Notes under the pieces: generated by a model
Databases searched by the model: none
What the model was told of the DNA's origin: nothing
The model's input: only the letters and a program-made list of their open reading frames with translations
NCBI RefSeq assembly: GCF_013376475.1
Contig: NZ_CP045508.1
Coordinates: forward strand, 2,764,001 to 2,828,000
DNA: 64,000 nt
Source: Desulfolutivibrio sulfoxidireducens
Lineage (GTDB): Bacteria; Desulfobacterota; Desulfovibrionia; Desulfovibrionales; Desulfovibrionaceae
Reading direction: 5' to 3'
Translations under genes and position numbers: made by a program
Shown here: positions 5,136 to 13,756 of the stretch, one piece after another
Position numbering within the stretch: position 1 is the first letter of the stretch
How the letters are laid out: each line of letters opens with the position of its first letter

Positions 5136-6116
5136 CTACAACTCCTTGGGCGGCTCGTTGACCTCTTCAAGGGGCGCGGTGGCCTTCTCGAAGGCCTCAA
5201 GCCGCGCGTATTCCTCGTCCACGCGGCTTTGGATGTATTCCACCGAATCCGGCGTCAAATGCCGGAACCGGCGCTGCAACTTGAAATAGTCCGTCACCGG
5301 CTTGGGCTTTTTCACCTTCTGGGTGATGATGTACCGGCCGCCGACAACCTCGTAGAGCGGAAACACCTTGGTCTGCACCGCCAGGCGGCACAACTCCACG
5401 CTCTTGGCCGGATCGCTGCGCCAGCCCGTGGGACAGGTGGCGAAGATGTGCAGATACGCCGGGCCTTCCACAGCCAAGGCCTTGCGCACCTTGTTCATCA
5501 GATCCAGGTGGTAGGCCGGGCTGGCCGTGGCCACGTAGGGAACCTCGTGGGCCGCGGCGATCATGGCCATGTTCTTCTTCCAGGTATGCTGGCCGATGCT
5601 CTTTTTCCCCGGGGGCGAGGTGGTGGTCATGGCCCCGTACGGGGTCGAGCTGGAGCGCTGGATGCCGGTATTCATGTAGGCCTCGTTGTCCAGGCACACG
5701 TAGACGAAGTCGTGCCCGCGCTCCAGAGCCCCGGACAGGGCCTGCATCCCGATGTCCGCCGTGCCGCCGTCGCCGGCGAAGGCGATGACCTTGGGCCGCG
5801 TTTTGAGCTTGCCCTTGCGCAAAAGCGCCCGGTTGGCCGACTCCACCCCGGAGGCCACGGCCGCCGCGTTCTCGAAGGCCACGTGCAGCCAGGGCACGGA
5901 CCACGCCGACTGGGGGAAGGAGGAGGAGATGATCTCCATGCAGCCCGTGGCATTGCACACGATGGTCTCGGGACCGGCCGCCTTCATGACCATGCCCATG
6001 GCCAGCACCTCGGCGCAGCCCTGGCAGGCCCGGTGCCCGGAGGTGATCATCTTGTCCCAGGGAATGTTCTTGGCGGTGATTTTCTCATACCCGCTCAAAT
6101 CGACGTCACGAAGCAT
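5136..6116 (-). CDS. porB: Pyruvate/2-oxoacid:ferredoxin oxidoreductase, beta subunit
   Basis: 326 residues. This subunit binds thiamine diphosphate and a [4Fe-4S] cluster and works with the alpha subunit to oxidise a 2-oxoacid to acyl-CoA and CO2, passing electrons to ferredoxin. The TPP motif is GDGGTADIG (115-123) with NEAYMNTG (144-151). Likely cluster Cys are C31 and C34 (ACQGCAE), C59 (ATGC) and C228 (FATCPTGW), as in archaeal-type PorB. The gene overlaps the 3' end of porA by 11 bp and is followed by a clear terminator. The sequence alone does not separate pyruvate from 2-ketoisovalerate specificity, but the fit is best to PorB. Confidence 0.92.
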   Translation of the reverse strand: MLRDVDLSGYEKITAKNIPWDKMITSGHRACQGCAEVLAMGMVMKAAGPETIVCNATGCMEIISSSFPQSAWSVPWLHVAFENAAAVASGVESANRALLRKGKLKTRPKVIAFAGDGGTADIGMQALSGALERGHDFVYVCLDNEAYMNTGIQRSSSTPYGAMTTTSPPGKKSIGQHTWKKNMAMIAAAHEVPYVATASPAYHLDLMNKVRKALAVEGPAYLHIFATCPTGWRSDPAKSVELCRLAVQTKVFPLYEVVGGRYIITQKVKKPKPVTDYFKLQRRFRHLTPDSVEYIQSRVDEEYARLEAFEKATAPLEEVNEPPKEL

Positions 6117-7281
6117 GGCTTTCCACCCCCCACATCAAAGAGTTGCCGGAAAGCTTCCCGGAAACCGCCTGTTGGTGCATCTCCTTGAAGTCCAGCACGG
6201 TCACGTCGCGGCCGCCCAGGCCGGCAATCACGCTTAGGATCTCGGGCGCGTCCGCACGTCCGTAAAACAGGCTTTTGAGCTCCGAGGCCACCGGGGCGCA
6301 CACCGCGCCGGGGGCAAGGACCCGGTCGATGACCACCAGCCGCTCGGCCCCGGCGCAGGCCGCCACGAATTCCTCCATCGGGAACGGCCGCCACAGCCGG
6401 ATGCGCGTCTGGCCCACGTCCGCGCCCTCGGCCAGAAGCTCGTCCACGGCCGTCATGCACGTCTCGCCAAGCGAGCCCATGGTCACAAAAAGGGTCTTGG
6501 CCCCGGGTTTGCCGTTGTGCTCCACCAGCGTGTAGTGGCGGTCAAAGGCCGTGCCGAACCCGTCAAGCACCTCTTTCACCACGGGCTTTGCGCCGAGGAT
6601 CGCCTGCTCGATCTGCTTTCTGGCCTCGGTGTACATCTCGGGCACGCCCACCGGGCCAAAGGTCACGGGATTGGCCGTGTCCAGCTTGAGGGCCGGCTGA
6701 TACGGCGGCAAGAAGGCGTCCACCTCGGCATGGTCCGGGATGATCACCGGCTCGATGACGTGGCTTAAGGTAAAGCCGTCGATGTTCACGATCATGGGCA
6801 GAAGAACCCGCTTGTCCTCGGCGATCTTGAAGGCGCACAAGGTCAGATCCAGGGCCTCCTGGCCGTTCTCGGCGAAAATCTGCACCCAGCCGATGTCGCG
6901 CTCGGCCATGATGTCGCCATGGTCGTTCCAGATGCTGATCGGCGCGGACAGGGCCCGGTTGGCCACGGTCATGACCAGGGGCATGCGCATGCCGGAGACG
7001 ATGAAAAGGATCTCGTGCATGAGCGCCAGGCCCTGGGAGGCCGTGGCGGTATACACCCGGGCGCCGGCGGCGGCCGCGCCAAGAGCCGCGCTCATGGCCG
7101 AATGCTCGGATTCCACCGGGATGAACTCGGCGTCCAGATCGCCATTGGCAACGTAAATGGACAGTTCCTCGACGATATGCGTTTGCGGGGTGATGGGATA
7201 GGCGGAGACGACATCCACATTGGCGAGTTTCACCGCTTCCGCCACGGCCAGGGACACTTCAAGCCCTATGCGCTTGCCCAT
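6106..7281 (-). CDS. porA: Pyruvate/2-oxoacid:ferredoxin oxidoreductase, alpha subunit
   Basis: 391 residues. The pyrimidine-binding half of the multi-subunit ferredoxin oxidoreductase; the opening SAYPITPQTHIVEELS and the following ESEHSAMSAALGAAAAGARV stretch are hallmarks of the alpha subunit. The start ATG (MGKRIGLEV) shares its A with the porD stop codon (TAATG), a translational-coupling arrangement; the longer open frame upstream lies inside porD and is ignored. No gamma-subunit gene adjoins, although the classical four-subunit enzyme (GDAB) needs one. Confidence 0.92.
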   Translation of the reverse strand: MGKRIGLEVSLAVAEAVKLANVDVVSAYPITPQTHIVEELSIYVANGDLDAEFIPVESEHSAMSAALGAAAAGARVYTATASQGLALMHEILFIVSGMRMPLVMTVANRALSAPISIWNDHGDIMAERDIGWVQIFAENGQEALDLTLCAFKIAEDKRVLLPMIVNIDGFTLSHVIEPVIIPDHAEVDAFLPPYQPALKLDTANPVTFGPVGVPEMYTEARKQIEQAILGAKPVVKEVLDGFGTAFDRHYTLVEHNGKPGAKTLFVTMGSLGETCMTAVDELLAEGADVGQTRIRLWRPFPMEEFVAACAGAERLVVIDRVLAPGAVCAPVASELKSLFYGRADAPEILSVIAGLGGRDVTVLDFKEMHQQAVSGKLSGNSLMWGVESHAS

Positions 7282-7571
7282 TACTCGCCCCCCTTGACCA
7301 TCGTGATGGCGTCCTTGGGACATTCATTGGCGCATATCCCACATCCCTTGCAAAAATACAGGTCCGGACGATAGAACCCCTCGGCATCCACGCTGATGCA
7401 AAATTCCGGACAGTACATGGCGCACAGGGAGCACTTGATGCATTTTTCCTCGTCCAGTTGAGGCTGAAGGCTCCGCCAGTCGCCGGTCCGAAGCTCCTTG
7501 GCGTTCCCGGGCGAAAGAATCGCCGCGCCCAGCGCCAAGTCCTCCCAGGCCATGATCGCTTGCTTGGACAT
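7281..7571 (-). CDS. porD: 2-oxoacid:ferredoxin oxidoreductase, delta subunit (2x[4Fe-4S] ferredoxin)
   Basis: 96 residues with two CxxCxxCxxxC motifs (CIKCSLCAMYC near 44-54 and CKGCGICANEC near 74-84), which bind two [4Fe-4S] clusters and carry electrons out of the beta subunit. It has an excellent ribosome-binding site (AGGAGGAG, 5 nt before ATG) and is the first gene of porD-porA-porB. The 275-bp gap upstream (7572-7846) has no supported gene. Confidence 0.92.
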   Translation of the reverse strand: MSKQAIMAWEDLALGAAILSPGNAKELRTGDWRSLQPQLDEEKCIKCSLCAMYCPEFCISVDAEGFYRPDLYFCKGCGICANECPKDAITMVKGGE

Positions 7572-7846: not shown

Positions 7847-8530
7847 CTAGACCTCGAGCCCCTCCCGGTTCTCGGTCCTGTCCAAAAGCACCTCCACCGC
7901 CACCCCCGTCTCCCGGCTCGGACGCAACGCAAAAACCTTCGCCGCCTCGCCCATGAAATGATCCACCGGGTGATGGCTGATGTAGAGCACCTGAAAACCC
8001 AACCTGTCCGCAATCTTGCGGATCAACTTGGCGAACCGGGGCACCAGATCGGGCCGCAGCCAGCAGTCCTGCTCGTCCAGCACCAGAAAGGGCCGATGCC
8101 GCCCGACGTCCAACTGCGAAAGCGCGATCAGCCGCAACCCAACGGACAGGATGTTGCACACCGAACCACCCTGGCCGGTCATCACGTCCTCGCTCTGGCC
8201 CTGGTTCACCATCTCGAAATGGATCGACAACCGATTCCCCTTCACCTCCCGGCAGGCCCGGACCTCCCGGTCCTGGGCCAGTATCTCCCGCACCGCATGC
8301 GTCAGGTTCACCTCGATCTCATCAATCACCTCGCCGAAAAGCTCCCCCGTCAACACCTCGAGCCTCGACGAGGCCGCCGGCGCGGCCGCCAAGAATTCAT
8401 CCACCCGGGCAAGCGACTCCCGCGTCTCCACATACCCGCGCACCCGGGCCTCGGCCACGCCCGAAAGCCGGTCCAAACGGCGCTCCAATTCCCGCCGCGC
8501 GTCCAAAAGACCCGCCAGATCGTCCGACAT
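7847..8530 (-). CDS. Rad50/SbcC-like ATPase, stand-alone C-terminal half
   Basis: 227 residues. A short coiled coil (about 1-90) leads into the C-terminal lobe of an SMC/Rad50-type ABC ATPase: a degenerate signature around GQGGSVCNILSVGLRLIAL (119-137), Walker B FLVLDE (148-153), and a switch His in ISHHP (184-188). No Walker A is present; the matching N-terminal lobe is encoded at 12416-13756 in the same direction. Start ATG 8530 has a GAGG site 5 nt upstream. The open frame continues upstream through a repeat element, but that part is not protein-like. It probably pairs with the N-terminal half to rebuild an ATPase head. Family placement is secure; the split function is inferred. Confidence 0.75.
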   Translation of the reverse strand: MSDDLAGLLDARRELERRLDRLSGVAEARVRGYVETRESLARVDEFLAAAPAASSRLEVLTGELFGEVIDEIEVNLTHAVREILAQDREVRACREVKGNRLSIHFEMVNQGQSEDVMTGQGGSVCNILSVGLRLIALSQLDVGRHRPFLVLDEQDCWLRPDLVPRFAKLIRKIADRLGFQVLYISHHPVDHFMGEAAKVFALRPSRETGVAVEVLLDRTENREGLEV

Positions 8531-8557
8531 CGTTACCTCGCGGTTGGCCTCCGGCGG

Positions 8558-8853
8558 CCAGGGAGGGGGAACCCTTTTGAAAAAGGGTTCCCCCTCCCTG
8601 GACCCACCCCTTCCGAAAACTTCAACGGTTTCTCTCCGTACCCAGCCCGTATCACACTTTTGATTCCCGTTTCCATACCTCGCGGCAATCGAGAAAAAAA
8701 TCCCATGCCATACACCTTCCGCCATATCCCCCATACAGTCGTCGCCTGGCGACGACTGTCGGCCCCCGACGCGAAACCGCCGAGGGGGTCCGGGGGGAAT
8801 CATTCCCCCCGGGCGGGGGTGGGGCGCGGGGAGGGGGCGACGCCCCCTCCCCG
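8558..8853 (-). repeat. Two-hairpin intergenic repeat, copy 1
   Basis: Fills the 329-bp gap between the RNB gene and the Rad50 C-half gene; no gene is seen in it. Hairpin A (8558-8601) has 21-bp perfect arms around a GA loop. Hairpin B (8827-8853) has arms CGGGGAGGGGGCG around one A, and between them a 9-bp GGGGGGAAT palindrome (8792-8810). Hairpin B starts 6 nt after the upstream stop codon; hairpin A ends 28 nt before the next ATG. The same architecture recurs at 10965-11150. Confidence 0.75.
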
Positions 8854-8859
8854 CCTCTC

Positions 8860-10926
8860 TCATGCCTCGTCCGTTTCCGTGGCCTCCAGGACCCGCAGTT
8901 CGTTGGTCAGCGGGTCCACCTTGCCCAGGCGCAGGGCGAAGGGTTGTCCGGGACGAATCTTCTCCCCGAGTTGTTCCCGGTTCGCCCGGACGTACACCTG
9001 GATATCGGGCAGGGCCAGGGTCACGAACGGGCCTCCGGATTCGACCACGATGCCGGTCCAGGTTTTTGAGCGGCAGTTCTGCCTGATGTGCAAAAGCTTC
9101 CAGTAACGCGGCCGAAAGCGCTGGATGCGCCCGGCCGCCTCGGTGCGGGAATTGATTTCCGGAAGCCGCTGTTCGAGTTCGGCCCGGGTCCATTTGGGGC
9201 TGCCGGTTTCAAGGACCTGGCGCAACTGGGCCAGGTTGACCAGATCCACGTAGCGGCGAAGCGGCGAGGTGACTGTGGCGTAGGCCTTGACCCCGATGGC
9301 CGCATGCGGCCGGGGCGCGATCTCCAGGCTGGTGGGCGGCAGGTGCTTGACCACGTGGTGGATGTCCTCGGGCCGGGACCAGACCCCGGCCAACTCCTTG
9401 GACAAGACCGCGTCCTGGGTGCGAAAATACAGGGGAAAGCCACCGGCCACGGCGAAACCCGCGGCCGAGGCGTTGGCCAGGATCATCAGCTCGCTGACCA
9501 GAAGCTGGGCGCGGGGATATTGTCCGGACGGCGCGAGGTCCACAAGCGGTTCGTCGGCCGGTCCGGAAAGAACCACGTCCGGCTCGACCCGCTCGATGAT
9601 CGCGGCCCCGGCGGCCACGCGGCGGGCGCGCAACAGTTCGGCCAGGGCGAAGCCCGAGGCGAGGCTTTGTCCCGGCTCCGGCCCGGCCAGTTCCGCCTCC
9701 ACATCGGCATAGGTCCGGTTGGCGGCCACCGTCACCCACGCACAGCGCATCTCGAAACGTCGGGTCGCTCCCCCGGCGTCGATGTCCCACTCCATGATCA
9801 GGGCCGGACGGGGCTTCTTCTCCACCAGGGAAAAAACGTCCGCGGCGAACGCCTCGGGCATCATGTGGCTCGTGCCCTCGGGCAGATACACGCTGCTGGC
9901 CCGGCGCATGACCGCCCGGTCCAGCGGCGCGTCGAACCGCCAGGCCGAGGACGGGTCGGCCAGGGCCAGACGGACCAGGAATCCGCCGTCCGAAAGAGGC
10001 TGCACATGGCAGGCGTCGTCGATGTCCCGGGTCGTGGGCGAATCCACGCTCACGAACGGCGTCGCATCCGGCTCGCAAGCAAGCCCCGCGCTCGCCTCCC
10101 GAATCTCCCCGATCTCCCCGGCATGCCTCCCGGCCCAGCCATCCCCGGGCTCGTAGCCGGCCTGATCCAGCAGATAATTGTGGTGCGGCGGCACCACCCC
10201 CCACTGTTCGGCCAAGACCAGGGGCAAAAAAGGATGTTCGGGCAGGCCCTTGCGTAGCGTGCCCCACAGGACCGCCAACTCCGAATTCTCCGGATCGGCC
10301 ACCAAACCAAGAAGCAGTTCCCGAAGCTTCACCGCCGCCTCGGGATCGAGCCTGGCCGCCAGCCTGGCCGTGTCGCGTTTCTCCCCCGAGGCCCACGCCG
10401 TCCACAGCTCCTTGAAGAACCCCTGCCCGGCCGTGACCACCTTCTCCCGCTCCAGGGCCAGGGCCTGCTCCGTCAACCGCCGCTCCACCACCTCCGCCGG
10501 AAACACCTCGAATTTGGGCGGATGGAACTTGAAATGCGTCTTGCACGCCAAAAGCGCCCGCCCGAGCCCCGCAACCTGATCCGTGTCCGGCCTCTCCCAT
10601 AAAAGCCCGGCAAACCACGCCACGGACTCGTCGCGCACCTCGCCCTGGGCAAGTTCCCATATCTCCATGGCGTCTACTTCGGAAGACACCCTGGCCCGCC
10701 TGGCCTCGCACGTGCAAAGCCGCTCCAGCATCCCTTCCCGATCCCGCACCGTGTCGTCACACGGCCCGACCCAGGGCAAGATCCGCGCCGCCGGCAGCTT
10801 CATCTCCCGTTTGTTGATGGTGTACAGCCGAAGCTTCCCCCCCGACTCCTCCACAACCCAGGCAAGCTGCGGCTCGTTGCCCTGCAAAAACTCCACAATA
10901 CAACCCGGCCCGGGATACTGTCGCAT
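8860..10926 (-). CDS. RNB-domain (RNase II/R family) exoribonuclease
   Basis: 688 residues. The RNB catalytic motif is complete: D295, D301, D303 and D304 (VSVDSPTTRDIDDA) have exactly the spacing of E. coli RNase II D201/D207/D209/D210. The family degrades RNA 3'->5' with Mg2+. The C-terminus (about 600-688) looks like an S1/OB RNA-binding domain. The N-terminal 250 residues lack an obvious cold-shock domain and do not match RNase R. Start ATG 10926 has AAGGA 7 nt upstream; the longer open frame upstream is repeat-derived. It lies between the two halves of a split Rad50-like ATPase, an unusual place for an RNase gene. Confidence 0.85.
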   Translation of the reverse strand: MRQYPGPGCIVEFLQGNEPQLAWVVEESGGKLRLYTINKREMKLPAARILPWVGPCDDTVRDREGMLERLCTCEARRARVSSEVDAMEIWELAQGEVRDESVAWFAGLLWERPDTDQVAGLGRALLACKTHFKFHPPKFEVFPAEVVERRLTEQALALEREKVVTAGQGFFKELWTAWASGEKRDTARLAARLDPEAAVKLRELLLGLVADPENSELAVLWGTLRKGLPEHPFLPLVLAEQWGVVPPHHNYLLDQAGYEPGDGWAGRHAGEIGEIREASAGLACEPDATPFVSVDSPTTRDIDDACHVQPLSDGGFLVRLALADPSSAWRFDAPLDRAVMRRASSVYLPEGTSHMMPEAFAADVFSLVEKKPRPALIMEWDIDAGGATRRFEMRCAWVTVAANRTYADVEAELAGPEPGQSLASGFALAELLRARRVAAGAAIIERVEPDVVLSGPADEPLVDLAPSGQYPRAQLLVSELMILANASAAGFAVAGGFPLYFRTQDAVLSKELAGVWSRPEDIHHVVKHLPPTSLEIAPRPHAAIGVKAYATVTSPLRRYVDLVNLAQLRQVLETGSPKWTRAELEQRLPEINSRTEAAGRIQRFRPRYWKLLHIRQNCRSKTWTGIVVESGGPFVTLALPDIQVYVRANREQLGEKIRPGQPFALRLGKVDPLTNELRVLEATETDEA

Positions 10927-10964
10927 GAATCGTCCTTTTTGAGTGAGGCGGTTTGAAGAGAACC

Positions 10965-11150
10965 CGGGAGGGGGCACCCTTTTGAAAAAGGGTGCCCCCT
11001 CCCGAACCCTCCCCCTCCGAAAACTTTTGGCGGCTTCGCCCCGCCTGCGGGACACCGCGGGCTCTGACGCAAAGCCGTCGAGGGGGTCCGGGGGAAATCA
11101 TTCCCCCCGGTGGGGGTGGGGTCCGGGGAGGGGGCGTCGCCCCCTCCCCG
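10965..11150 (-). repeat. Two-hairpin intergenic repeat, copy 2
   Basis: Second copy of the element at 8558-8853, in the same orientation. Hairpin A is 10965-11004 (19-bp arms, GA loop). Hairpin B is 11124-11150, with arms identical to copy 1 (CGGGGAGGGGGCG) around a T. The shared flank TCCGAAAACTT follows hairpin A in both copies, with small differences. The spacer between A and B is shorter here (about 120 against 225 bp). Confidence 0.75.
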
Positions 11151-11154
11151 TCCG

Positions 11155-11466
11155 TCACTCGCCGAACTCCCGGTCGATGGCGTCCAGGTCCTGGCGGACG
11201 GTTCGGATATGCTCGCGGTAGTCGGCAACGAGGGCGGCGTTTTCCCGGCGTTTGGCGTCGAGGAGTCCGGCGAGTTCGTCGGGGTTGGCGGTACCGTATT
11301 CGGCCAGGGCCTTTTTCTCCAATTCATCGAGCTGGGCGGCCAGGTGGGCGAGGTCCTGCTCGGCGCGGACTTTTTCGTCCCGCAACCGGTCATATTCGGC
11401 CTTGAGACCGGCGAGTTCCTTTTCCAGACTGGCGTCCAGAGCGGGGTTATTCGGGGTTTTGGGCAT
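11155..11466 (-). CDS. Small coiled-coil protein of the split Rad50 locus
   Basis: 103 residues, almost entirely charged heptad-like coiled coil (LEKELAGLKAEYDRLRDEK; LAALV and ELEKK runs). It has no signal peptide, membrane segment or catalytic motif. Its ATG lies inside the last 20 bp of the Mre11-like gene, so it is translationally coupled to it. A DELAGLLDAKRREN segment (about 63-76) resembles the first residues of the separate Rad50 C-terminal half (DDLAGLLDARRELE). It may supply part of the missing return arm of the coiled coil. This is inferred from composition and position only. Confidence 0.7.
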   Translation of the reverse strand: MPKTPNNPALDASLEKELAGLKAEYDRLRDEKVRAEQDLAHLAAQLDELEKKALAEYGTANPDELAGLLDAKRRENAALVADYREHIRTVRQDLDAIDREFGE

Positions 11467-12400
11467 GGGTGACCTCGCGATAGAGTTCCCAGATGAGGTT
11501 CGTTTCGGGATTTTCGGGATTAAGGTTGGCCTGAAGAAATTCCTTAAGCCCGGCGCCTTCGGCCGTGCGGCGCATGGCCAGTCGTTCGAGTCCCTGGAGG
11601 AAGCGGGATTCGGTCTGGGGGATATCGTTTTGTTCCGGAGGGAAGTCGGTATCGGGGAAGACCTGGTTGAAGGGCAGATGCGGCAGGGGCCATTTTTCCA
11701 GTTCGGCGCAACCGGGTCGCCAGATGGAGACGGCGGGAACGCGTTCCATGGAACGGCGGGTAAAGGACAGCCGGGTGATGTTGCCGGGGTTGGCCCAGGT
11801 GGTGGTTTTGGCGGTGACGCTGGGTTGGGGCCGGTGGATGTGGCCGTTTATGACCCAATCGACCCCGGGGATGGCCCGGATATGCTGAAAGCGGTCCTTG
11901 AAGTCGGGAAAGCTGATGTTGTGGTGGGTCAGCCAGACGGTTTGCGTTCCCGGGGCGCGGTCGAAGGACAGGGGGATGGGCGTGGCGTCGGGGGACGCGC
12001 CGAGCACTGCCTGTCCGGTCGGGGTCTCGATGCGCAGGAAGGGACCGGGGGTATCCAGAAGCTCCACGACCCCGGCGGCGTGAAGCACGGCCAGGGAGGT
12101 GTCGGAGGTAAACCGGGCCTGGTATTTGTCGTGGTTGCCGACCAGGGTGTAGGGCTTGTGGGGCCTGAAGAGGTCGATCAGGCGCACCAGGAGGGTATTT
12201 GGGTTCTCGCGCGGCCAGTGAAAAAGGTCGCCGAGAATGACCGGCAGCAGGTCGTTTTCGGCGGCCATGTTCAGGGCCACGGACAGTTTGTCCAGGACCT
12301 GATCGGTATAGCCCTCGAGGCGATGGCCTGGAGGGGTGGCGGCCACGTGGGGATCGGGAATGATGAGCAGTCCGGAGGTGGTGCGGCGCGGCAGTTCCAT
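11447..12400 (-). CDS. Mre11/SbcD-like metallophosphoesterase
   Basis: 317 residues of the calcineurin-like phosphoesterase fold with the metal-binding motifs in order: D16-x-H18 (DPH), GD58 (ILGDLFHW), GNHD (88-91), H159/H160 (LTHHN) and GHIH (186-189). In Mre11/SbcD this fold is a Mn2+-dependent nuclease that works with a Rad50/SbcC ATPase. It starts 15 bp after the Rad50 N-terminal-half gene and overlaps the coiled-coil gene by 20 bp. It is shorter than typical SbcD (about 400 aa) and lacks a clear capping domain. DNA nuclease activity is likely from context but not proven. Confidence 0.82.
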   Translation of the reverse strand: MELPRRTTSGLLIIPDPHVAATPPGHRLEGYTDQVLDKLSVALNMAAENDLLPVILGDLFHWPRENPNTLLVRLIDLFRPHKPYTLVGNHDKYQARFTSDTSLAVLHAAGVVELLDTPGPFLRIETPTGQAVLGASPDATPIPLSFDRAPGTQTVWLTHHNISFPDFKDRFQHIRAIPGVDWVINGHIHRPQPSVTAKTTTWANPGNITRLSFTRRSMERVPAVSIWRPGCAELEKWPLPHLPFNQVFPDTDFPPEQNDIPQTESRFLQGLERLAMRRTAEGAGLKEFLQANLNPENPETNLIWELYREVTHAQNPE

Positions 12401-12415
12401 AGGCGGTCCTGGCGA

Positions 12416-13756
12416 TCAGGAGGCGCGGCCGGCGACGGCCAGAAAGGTTTCGGAACGCAGGTCGTTGCCGCACAGGGGGCAGACGCCGATCTGGTCCAGG
12501 CGTTTCTCGATGTCCGCATGCAGGCGGTCGAGCCGGGCGGTCCTGGCGCCCAGGGCGGATACGGCCTCGGCCAGGCGCGCGCGCAACCGGGACAGTTCGG
12601 ACACGAGGTCGAAAAGCGGCCCGGCATCGGACAGGGCCGGCGGCGGCGAAAGGCCTTCACCGGCGGCAAGTTTTTTTTCCAGGCCCGCCTTCCGGACAGC
12701 CAGGGTCTGACGCCTGGCCAGGTGATCGGCCAGGGCGGCGACATCGAAGGTCGCGGGGGGCATGGCGAGACTGGAAAGGCCATGGGCCTTGCGCCGGGCG
12801 CGGTCCAGGGCGGCGGACGTGCGCCGGAGGGTATCGGTCGTCCGGGCCAGGGACGCGGCGTCGGCCAGGACCTTGGGAGCGGACAGCGGGGCCAGGGCCG
12901 TGACCTTGCCGACGGCCATTTTTTGAGCCGCGCGTAGGGAAACGAGCCTGGCTCCGGCGCGTTCCAGTTCGGCCACCGGGGCCAGGACCGGGGCCGGGCG
13001 CAGACCGGCGAGAACGGCCTGACGGCCGCCAAGCGCGGCGGCGCGGCGGGAGACGGCCTCGCGCGCGGCAAGGGCCTGTTCCAGGGCCGGAATCTCCCGG
13101 GCCAGACCCGTGAGGACGCGTTCCATGCCCCGGCCGGTCTCCAGGGCGTATTCGAGGTCCGGCAGCCGGGCCAGGCGGTCCAGATCGCGTCTGGCGGCGG
13201 CGGTCTCCGCCTCCAGGCGGCGTTTTTCCTGCTTGGCCTTGCGCACCTTGTCGGTGAGCAGGTTCTGCATGGCGATAAGGTGGGCGCTTTCGGTGGAGGC
13301 GGCGAAAAACGAGGCCATGACCGAACCGGGCTTGCCCAAAAGAAAGACGGGTTCGCGCTGGTTGCCCAGGTGCACGTCGATGTCCTCGCCGCTTTCCACA
13401 TGGACGGCATTGAGCCTTAAGGCGGCCAGGACATCCTCGGGCGGGGTGCGGCCGAATTTGGCGTAGGTGACGGGTTCGGCCGCGCCCGGGGGGGTGAGCT
13501 CGTAGATGGCGGACTTGGACTTTCTGACCCAGGCGACGCGGGTCCCGTCGTCGAGCAAGACCTCGACCCGGGCCTCGCCGGCCCCGTGGCGGATGACGTG
13601 TTTGGGCGCGGGGTTTTCGGCCAGACAGCGCAGGGCCTCGACCACGGCGGATTTTCCGGAATTGTTGGGTCCGGTAAGGGCATTTAAGCCCGTGGCGAAC
13701 TCGAAGACGCTTTCGCCGTGGGCCATGAAGTTTACAAGGGTCAGTTTCACGATCAT
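12416..13756 (-). CDS. Rad50/SbcC-like ATPase, stand-alone N-terminal half ending at the zinc hook
   Basis: 446 residues. The typical Rad50 opening (MIVKLTLVNFMAHG) carries Walker A GPNNSGKS (29-36). An N-terminal lobe runs to about 150, then a long Ala/Leu/Arg-rich coiled coil to about 420, then a zinc-hook CPLC (426-429) only 17 residues before the stop. The returning coil, signature and Walker B are absent; the missing ATPase lobe is the separate gene at 7847-8530. The stop codon is followed after 15 bp by the Mre11-like gene. ATG 13756 fits the family; its ribosome-binding site is weak. No sequence remnant of a C-terminal half lies directly downstream, so this is not a simple recent frameshift. 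Confidence 0.8.
   Translation of the reverse strand: MIVKLTLVNFMAHGESVFEFATGLNALTGPNNSGKSAVVEALRCLAENPAPKHVIRHGAGEARVEVLLDDGTRVAWVRKSKSAIYELTPPGAAEPVTYAKFGRTPPEDVLAALRLNAVHVESGEDIDVHLGNQREPVFLLGKPGSVMASFFAASTESAHLIAMQNLLTDKVRKAKQEKRRLEAETAAARRDLDRLARLPDLEYALETGRGMERVLTGLAREIPALEQALAAREAVSRRAAALGGRQAVLAGLRPAPVLAPVAELERAGARLVSLRAAQKMAVGKVTALAPLSAPKVLADAASLARTTDTLRRTSAALDRARRKAHGLSSLAMPPATFDVAALADHLARRQTLAVRKAGLEKKLAAGEGLSPPPALSDAGPLFDLVSELSRLRARLAEAVSALGARTARLDRLHADIEKRLDQIGVCPLCGNDLRSETFLAVAGRAS

Follow-up and report, generated by a model that had tools for sequence, protein, structure and literature searches.

A Rad50-like ATPase divided at the zinc hook and encoded with an Mre11-like nuclease in Desulfolutivibrio sulfoxidireducens and its relatives

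Genes of the locus and the recurring unit

A 64,000-nucleotide stretch of the single-contig, 4.16 Mb genome of Desulfolutivibrio sulfoxidireducens (RefSeq assembly GCF_013376475.1, contig NZ_CP045508.1, positions 2,764,001 to 2,828,000; hereafter the window, with positions counted from its first letter) carries the two halves of a Rad50-like ATPase as separate genes, together with an Mre11-like nuclease. Five open reading frames (ORFs) were confirmed here on the minus strand, at the positions given by a preliminary description made from the letters alone. The N-terminal half (N; 12416..13756, 446 aa) comprises ATPase lobe 1 with Walker A, an arm with 39-residue repeats and a C-terminal zinc hook. 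It is followed by an Mre11-like metallophosphoesterase (M; 11447..12400, 317 aa), a coiled-coil third protein (CC; 11155..11466, 103 aa), an RNB exoribonuclease (8860..10926, 688 aa, with DSPTTRDIDDA) and the C-terminal half (C; 7847..8530, 227 aa), which exists in one copy in this genome and in which a helix of residues 2–83 precedes lobe 2 with signature, Walker B and H-loop. The stop of N and the start of C are 3.9 kb apart.

Walker A (GPNNSGKS, N residues 29–36, 13649..13672) lies in N, whose stop codon comes 17 residues after the hook motif CPLC (residues 426–429, 12470..12481). C has GQGGS at the signature place (residues 119–123, 8162..8176) and the Walker B pair DE (residues 152–153, 8072..8077), and also carries LVLDE and ISHH. 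The preliminary description had read the genes in just this way, with Walker A in a gene ending shortly past CPLC and the signature, Walker B and H-loop in another, and its claim of a Rad50-like ATPase divided at the hook is upheld by motifs, folds and recurrence. In Pfam, N matches AAA_23 (E 2e-9), M matches Metallophos (4e-7) and the exoribonuclease the RNB domain (4e-55); no family passes the cut-off for C. In PHROGs, N and C match two distinct phage families, phrog_16465 (E 8e-24) and phrog_15167 (5e-5), respectively.

Strong C homologs occur in 20 of 79 genomes of relatives, the window genome included; two more genomes with weak C matches only were left uncounted. Strong N matches were found in 19 of the 79, each also with C, and the one remaining C-bearing genome (G007) has a piece of N at the beginning of a contig. 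One region was examined from each of the 19 other C-bearing genomes. N, M, CC and C stand together and in this order at 16 of these loci, and C stands alone at three (L027, L034 and L025, the last cut by a contig end); a full-length single-gene SbcC is present at none of the 19. A scan of named genomes, in which the best 80 of 125 confirmed loci were analysed, extended the set chiefly to Desulfobacterota and Planctomycetota (Desulfovibrionaceae, Desulfobacca, Syntrophobacteraceae, Desulfacinum, Desulfobacteraceae and Planctomycetota, with two Bacillota and one Sumerlaeota). N-M-CC-C is complete and in order at 69 of the 80. The 11 incomplete loci are either truncated by contig ends (L054, L056, L057, L095, L111) or have C alone (L063, L099, L102, L103, L120, L124); N is found elsewhere in three of these six C-alone genomes, as a fragment in one, and was not found in two. 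Stop and start codons overlap at 62/69 N-M, 63/72 M-CC and 35/72 CC-C junctions. C is separable from the unit, because it stands apart from an intact N-M-CC cluster in four genomes (G033, G079, G080, G083), and in L029, L038 and L042 CC and C are separated by about 0.85–1 kb of other DNA. The insert of L029 holds a membrane-protein-like gene (6447–7427, minus strand), the product of which we assume may be a CPBP protease; inserted DNA is found at this place also in L038, L042, L056 and L077.

The recurring unit is thus four genes, N, M, CC and C (hereafter the cassette), and the split Rad50 is a genuine variant within the Mre11-Rad50 class, and a widely distributed one. Frameshifting and sequencing error were rejected as causes of the split, since in the chromosomal arrangement M and CC come between the two halves, and the same break is seen at the 69 named loci and on all of 27 viral contigs (see below). 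The ATPase halves, nuclease and coiled-coil protein of the preliminary description therefore form a conserved set; of the five-gene order that it gave, N-M-CC-C is kept and RNB is not part of the recurring unit.

The same description had counted the exoribonuclease as a member of one DNA/RNA end-processing machine. In the window and in a second member of the genus (L024), RNB is indeed flanked by CC and C, but L024 is just one of the 16 relatives' loci. RNB homologs are found in 75 of the 79 relatives, with or without the cassette, and in all 17 cassette genomes from other genera the gene sits on a different contig or, in G027, G017 and G039, 13 kb or more away on the cassette contig. The third genus member (G001) has N-M-CC, RNB and C each at contig ends, so that gene order is not readable there: RNB ends 44 bases before its contig end, CC and C are near contig ends too, and the 8.6 kb upstream of RNB contain no N, M or CC. 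The distant placement in 17/17 genomes led to rejection of the RNase as a subunit; a machine of all five genes is very improbable, and RNB is taken here to be a bystander. Two kinds of GC-rich palindromic repeat lie on both sides of RNB (8558–8638, 8785–8866, 10963–11043 and 11082–11163), about 75–77% alike between copies, with cores that occur nowhere else in the window. Similar palindromes are present at the equivalent sites in L024, and in G001 the contig ends beside RNB and CC share one kind of such repeat.

Head, hook and arm of the divided ATPase

Alignments comprised 60 N sequences (L104 and any N protein truncated or shorter than 390 aa being excluded) and 57 C sequences (56 from the 79 loci references, and the window). 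Walker A residues G29, N31, N32, G34, K35 and S36, the glutamine Q133 and both hook cysteines are invariant in 60/60 N sequences. In C, GQGGSVxN occupies the signature place; G119, G121, G122, S123, V124 and N126 are present in 57/57 and Q120 in 54/57. Neither the Walker B DE nor the H-loop SHH varies among the 57, and the core is 112 residues in 48/57.

The predicted C model (pLDDT 91, pTM 0.70) has a single helix, 2–83, and then lobe 2, and matches Rad50 1f2u_D (Z 10.7, rmsd 3.6 over 141 residues); although no Pfam family passes the cut-off for C, its model matches Rad50/SMC C-lobes. The N model (pLDDT 82.5, pTM 0.39) consists of lobe 1, helices 157–195 and 198–250, three helices of 27–28 residues, helix 379–423 and the hook, and matches 1f2u_C (Z 12.6, rmsd 2.7 over 130 residues), tying with SMC and RecF heads. 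The Pyrococcus furiosus Rad50 head crystals 1F2T/1F2U, in which the lobes are separate chains of one head, are in the top-ranked group for both models. These crystals are a laboratory construct without arm or hook, whereas the cassette is a natural gene arrangement. The fold matches, N to lobe 1 and C to lobe 2, therefore support one head made from two chains, as in 1F2U.

The chain end at the hook is a constant feature, as N terminates 15–42 residues past its last CxxC at 68 of 69 complete named loci. The end of the N profile (positions 385–451) matches the Rad50 hook chains 6zff (E 4.5e-6) and 1l8d (E 7.5e-5), and the alignment to 1l8d stops at residue 61 of 112. The arm is built of regular units. 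Spacings between successive PP pairs in 59 N arms (n = 139) are exactly 39 residues in 73 cases and 38–40 in 120, and prolines reach an autocorrelation of 346 at lag 39, where shuffled sequences do not exceed 70 at any lag. The length from P199 to the hook equals 189 + 39k (189, 228, 267, 306, 345) in 48 of the 60 sequences; the other 12 have 192, 227 (twice), 270, 275 (twice), 299, 305, 314 (three times) and 344.

CC, by contrast with this varying arm, has a core of 74 residues in all of 38 sequences (37 from the 71 loci references, and the window), with an EYGTxD break between two helices. The N arm length is quantised in 39-residue steps, and CC and C lengths are fixed. CC alone cannot be the full-length antiparallel partner of the arm, because its core stays constant as the arm shifts by 39 residues, and a full-length return strand formed by CC is unlikely for the same reason. 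CC as a two-unit 39-residue repeat was rejected as well, there being no autocorrelation peak at 39. Against solved chains the CC profile gives weak coiled-coil matches only, plectin first. Two N arms may instead pair in parallel, or each may fold unit by unit.

M has metal ligands D16, H18, D58, N89, H90, H159, H187 and H189, invariant in 36/36 chromosomal sequences (35 from the 71 loci references, and the window), and its profile matches Mre11/SbcD chains (best E 5e-7). In a tree of 36 proteins, a branch with support 99/95 divides 28 M rows from four SbcD and four weak SbcD-like rows; the phage M rows have long branches and their placement is unsure. The weak SbcD-like proteins form a branch of their own and are possibly of the YhaO/YhaN kind, a bacterial pair of Mre11-like nuclease and Rad50-like ATPase with the ATPase in one chain. 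In two Desulfobacteraceae (L107, L117) M is nested among Planctomycetota rows (100/98), which suggests transfer of M between phyla.

Phage and megaplasmid versions

By tblastn, N- or C-like proteins were found in five phages (six records), all with separate N and separate C, and N ends near CxxC in four of the five. Microcystis phage Mvi-JY20 has the order N-M-CC-C, all annotated hypothetical. The N of Tunturi_5 has CGKC at its end and is followed by a coiled-coil protein and an annotated SbcD, with C about 100 kb away; for this phage and Magritte, CC was identified by eye alone. C of Bacillus phage vB_BboS-125, used as query, gave 30 matching stretches on 27 viral contigs, and these phage or prophage contigs have the order N-CC-C-M, with N ending near CxxC, in 27/27 cases, many of which share near-identical N ends and are not independent. 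The M gene of vB_BboS-125 itself (L044, 9112–10227) lies within a gap of the deposited annotation. The viral contigs gave no match to C of Tunturi_5, C of Mvi-JY20 or query A2, and one weak M-like match to query A3. In jumbo phages, homologs of SbcC and SbcD are near-universal recombination genes (PMC7824862); the parts of that paper drawn on here treat split polymerases and do not mention a split SbcC.

On proteobacterial megaplasmids the halves are joined in reverse. M as query matched nine plasmid records, and at five plasmid loci (Variovorax, Bosea, Acidiphilium, Methylorubrum and Rhizobium) the gene before M encodes one C-N protein with the hook last. The Bosea protein matched 21 plasmid records from nine genera, each as one piece reaching both lobes, and the four gammaproteobacterial plasmid proteins examined are permuted too. 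All seven annotated complete proteins have Walker B (residues 101–160), then Walker A (224–302) and then CxxC, 7–58 residues from the end. The C-N fusion is a natural circular permutant with its chain end again at the hook. As a Rosetta stone, it links N and C as parts of a single ATPase. At 9/9 plasmid loci examined CC has its own gene immediately upstream (eight by profile, Alteromonas by eye), and its separateness beside the fusion marks it as a protein in its own right. The permuted protein had no match in phage records at 1e-5, and a phage N had none in plasmids.

The phage and plasmid proteins examined are mostly annotated hypothetical or AAA ATPase. Rearranged genes encoding Mre11/Rad50 fusion proteins have been reported in viruses, plasmids and bacteria (Yoshida 2011, PMC3175470); as far as the part of that report used here goes, they join Mre11 to a Rad50-like part, and neither a hook split nor a permutation is described. 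Searches of open-licence literature turned up neither a hook-split nor a circularly permuted Rad50 or SbcC; subscription papers may differ.

Relation to SbcCD and proposed mechanism

The window genome has no match at E 0.001 to TIGR00618 (SbcC), a model that matched 14/14 controls, 1/14 over its cut-off, or to TIGR00619 (SbcD). Among the 79 relatives, SbcD-like matches at E ≤0.001 occur in 2/20 cassette genomes vs 51/59 others (p 8e-10, ignoring kinship), within the family in 2/20 vs 23/27 (p 2e-7, ignoring kinship), and at E ≤1e-6 in 0/20 vs 51/59. Six of the 79 genomes exceed the SbcD cut-off, none of them with the cassette, and most SbcD-like matches fall below it. Cassette-bearing relatives thus appear to lack an SbcD-like nuclease. 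This also fills an annotation gap, as relatives seemingly without SbcD carry the cassette instead.

With SbcCD and Mre11-Rad50 the cassette shares an Mre11-type nuclease with its metal ligands, the Walker A, Q-loop, Walker B and H-loop motifs and an arm with a CxxC hook. It differs in having N and C as distinct chains or as a permuted C-N protein, in the chain end at the hook, in GQGGS, in the extra CC protein and in the 39-residue arm units. M has the phosphoesterase fold and Mre11 ligands of SbcD but lies apart in the tree, and the one-chain layout of Rad50 and SbcC, in which an out-and-back arm links both lobes, is that of neither the split nor the permuted form.

Homology argues strongly for a biochemical reading of the cassette as an ATP-gated DNA-end nuclease of the Mre11-Rad50 type, in which Rad50 is broken at the hook, the head would form in trans and CC would be a third subunit, and which would replace SbcCD (probability about 0.7). 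N and C would come together in trans as a single ABC head, N supplying lobe 1 and Walker A, and C supplying lobe 2 and its signature, Walker B and H-loop, while the 82-residue helix of C would pack against the head-proximal helices of N. Two heads would bind an M dimer, and two N arms, lengthened by whole 39-residue units, would be joined through a zinc shared by their C-terminal hooks. CC would be a subunit of fixed length at a constant site on arm or hook. Such a complex would process DNA ends and hairpins in the manner of SbcCD, the place of which it may have taken in these chromosomes.

A further proposal is more tentative and is held at somewhat less than even odds. It sees a separate, undescribed branch of Mre11-Rad50 defined by the chain end at the hook, in which the ATPase of chromosomes and phages is in three pieces (N, CC, C) and that of megaplasmids is a C-N permutant with free CC. 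The arm of SMC and Rad50 proteins is by convention taken to be an intramolecular antiparallel coiled coil. In the proposed branch the N arms would zip in trans, because the descending strand is not covalent and the arm steps by 39 residues while CC and C are fixed, or would fold unit by unit. If true, arm length would be a digital, evolvable setting.

Several observations weigh against a nuclease of the SbcCD kind. GQGGS stands where Rad50 has its signature LSGGE, and the arm fold in the N model is uncertain, given the pTM of 0.39. CxxC is missing from N of L104, the sole exception among the 69 loci, and from N of phage Magritte (351 aa), of which three stretches examined contained no M. The SbcD-exclusion statistics ignore kinship, and Planctomycetota (197 genomes, nine with C) back the exclusion weakly: SbcD-like matches at E 0.001 occur in 7/9 genomes with C vs 103/188 without, which is no difference; at 1e-6 in 0/9 vs 93/188 (p 0.004), a limit chosen afterwards; and over the SbcD cut-off in 0/9 vs 29/188 (p 0.36). 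At the four gammaproteobacterial plasmid loci (L165–L168) the usual catalytic motifs are missing, as judged by eye, from the M-like neighbour of the ATPase, a possible pseudo-nuclease; that of the Aeromonas plasmid has no M profile match.

These four loci, which keep CC and the permuted ATPase beside such a protein, are what would be expected of a structural DNA tether or loop former with hook and arms as the central parts and M mainly as a clamp, and hook and arm length are indeed strictly kept. The invariance of the M metal ligands in the chromosomal sequences speaks against it, and a tether is considered unlikely. A Lamassu- or Gabija-related system for defence against phages or plasmids, in which a Rad50-like protein would be the sensor and M the effector nuclease, would account for the PADLOC matches of N to models of LmuB and GajA (best E 4e-11), including one to LmuB that spans N residues 2–435, for those of CC to LmuB coils (weak) and of C to mad3 (2.8e-7), and for the Lamassu structures among the lower-ranked C matches (Z 7.5). 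However, 66 PADLOC families match N, chiefly around Walker A, as for any SMC-like ATPase, M and RNB match none, and phages carry the same gene set. SbcD-like genes are missing where the cassette is present, and the conserved chromosomal neighbours in one subgroup look housekeeping. Among the five window-locus proteins there is no match to LmuA or LmuC, and LmuB-like matches are confined to N and CC. The defence role that the preliminary description had considered possible gained little from these results, the LmuB and GajA matches of N being those of generic Rad50-like ATPases; it was rejected on the PADLOC results and is regarded as quite improbable.

If the cassette is an Mre11-Rad50-type nuclease, it touches on the general view that Rad50 and SMC proteins need one chain running out to the tip and back. 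The hook break and the reversed halves on megaplasmids suggest that a covalent return strand is not needed. The cassette would offer a natural system in which hook, arm length, head assembly and nuclease are separable and can each be varied singly, making the coupling of ATP at the head to arm and hook directly testable.

Among the largest clusters of flanking ORFs listed (uncurated), no neighbour is shared across phyla. The upstream neighbours at Pseudodesulfovibrio-type loci resemble, by their motifs, what we presume to be mutM, murJ and a methyltransferase gene. In the window, C is adjoined at 5136–7571 by a ferredoxin-like gene and a 2-oxoacid:ferredoxin oxidoreductase (POR_N, PFOR_II), neighbours that are retained in both other genus members.

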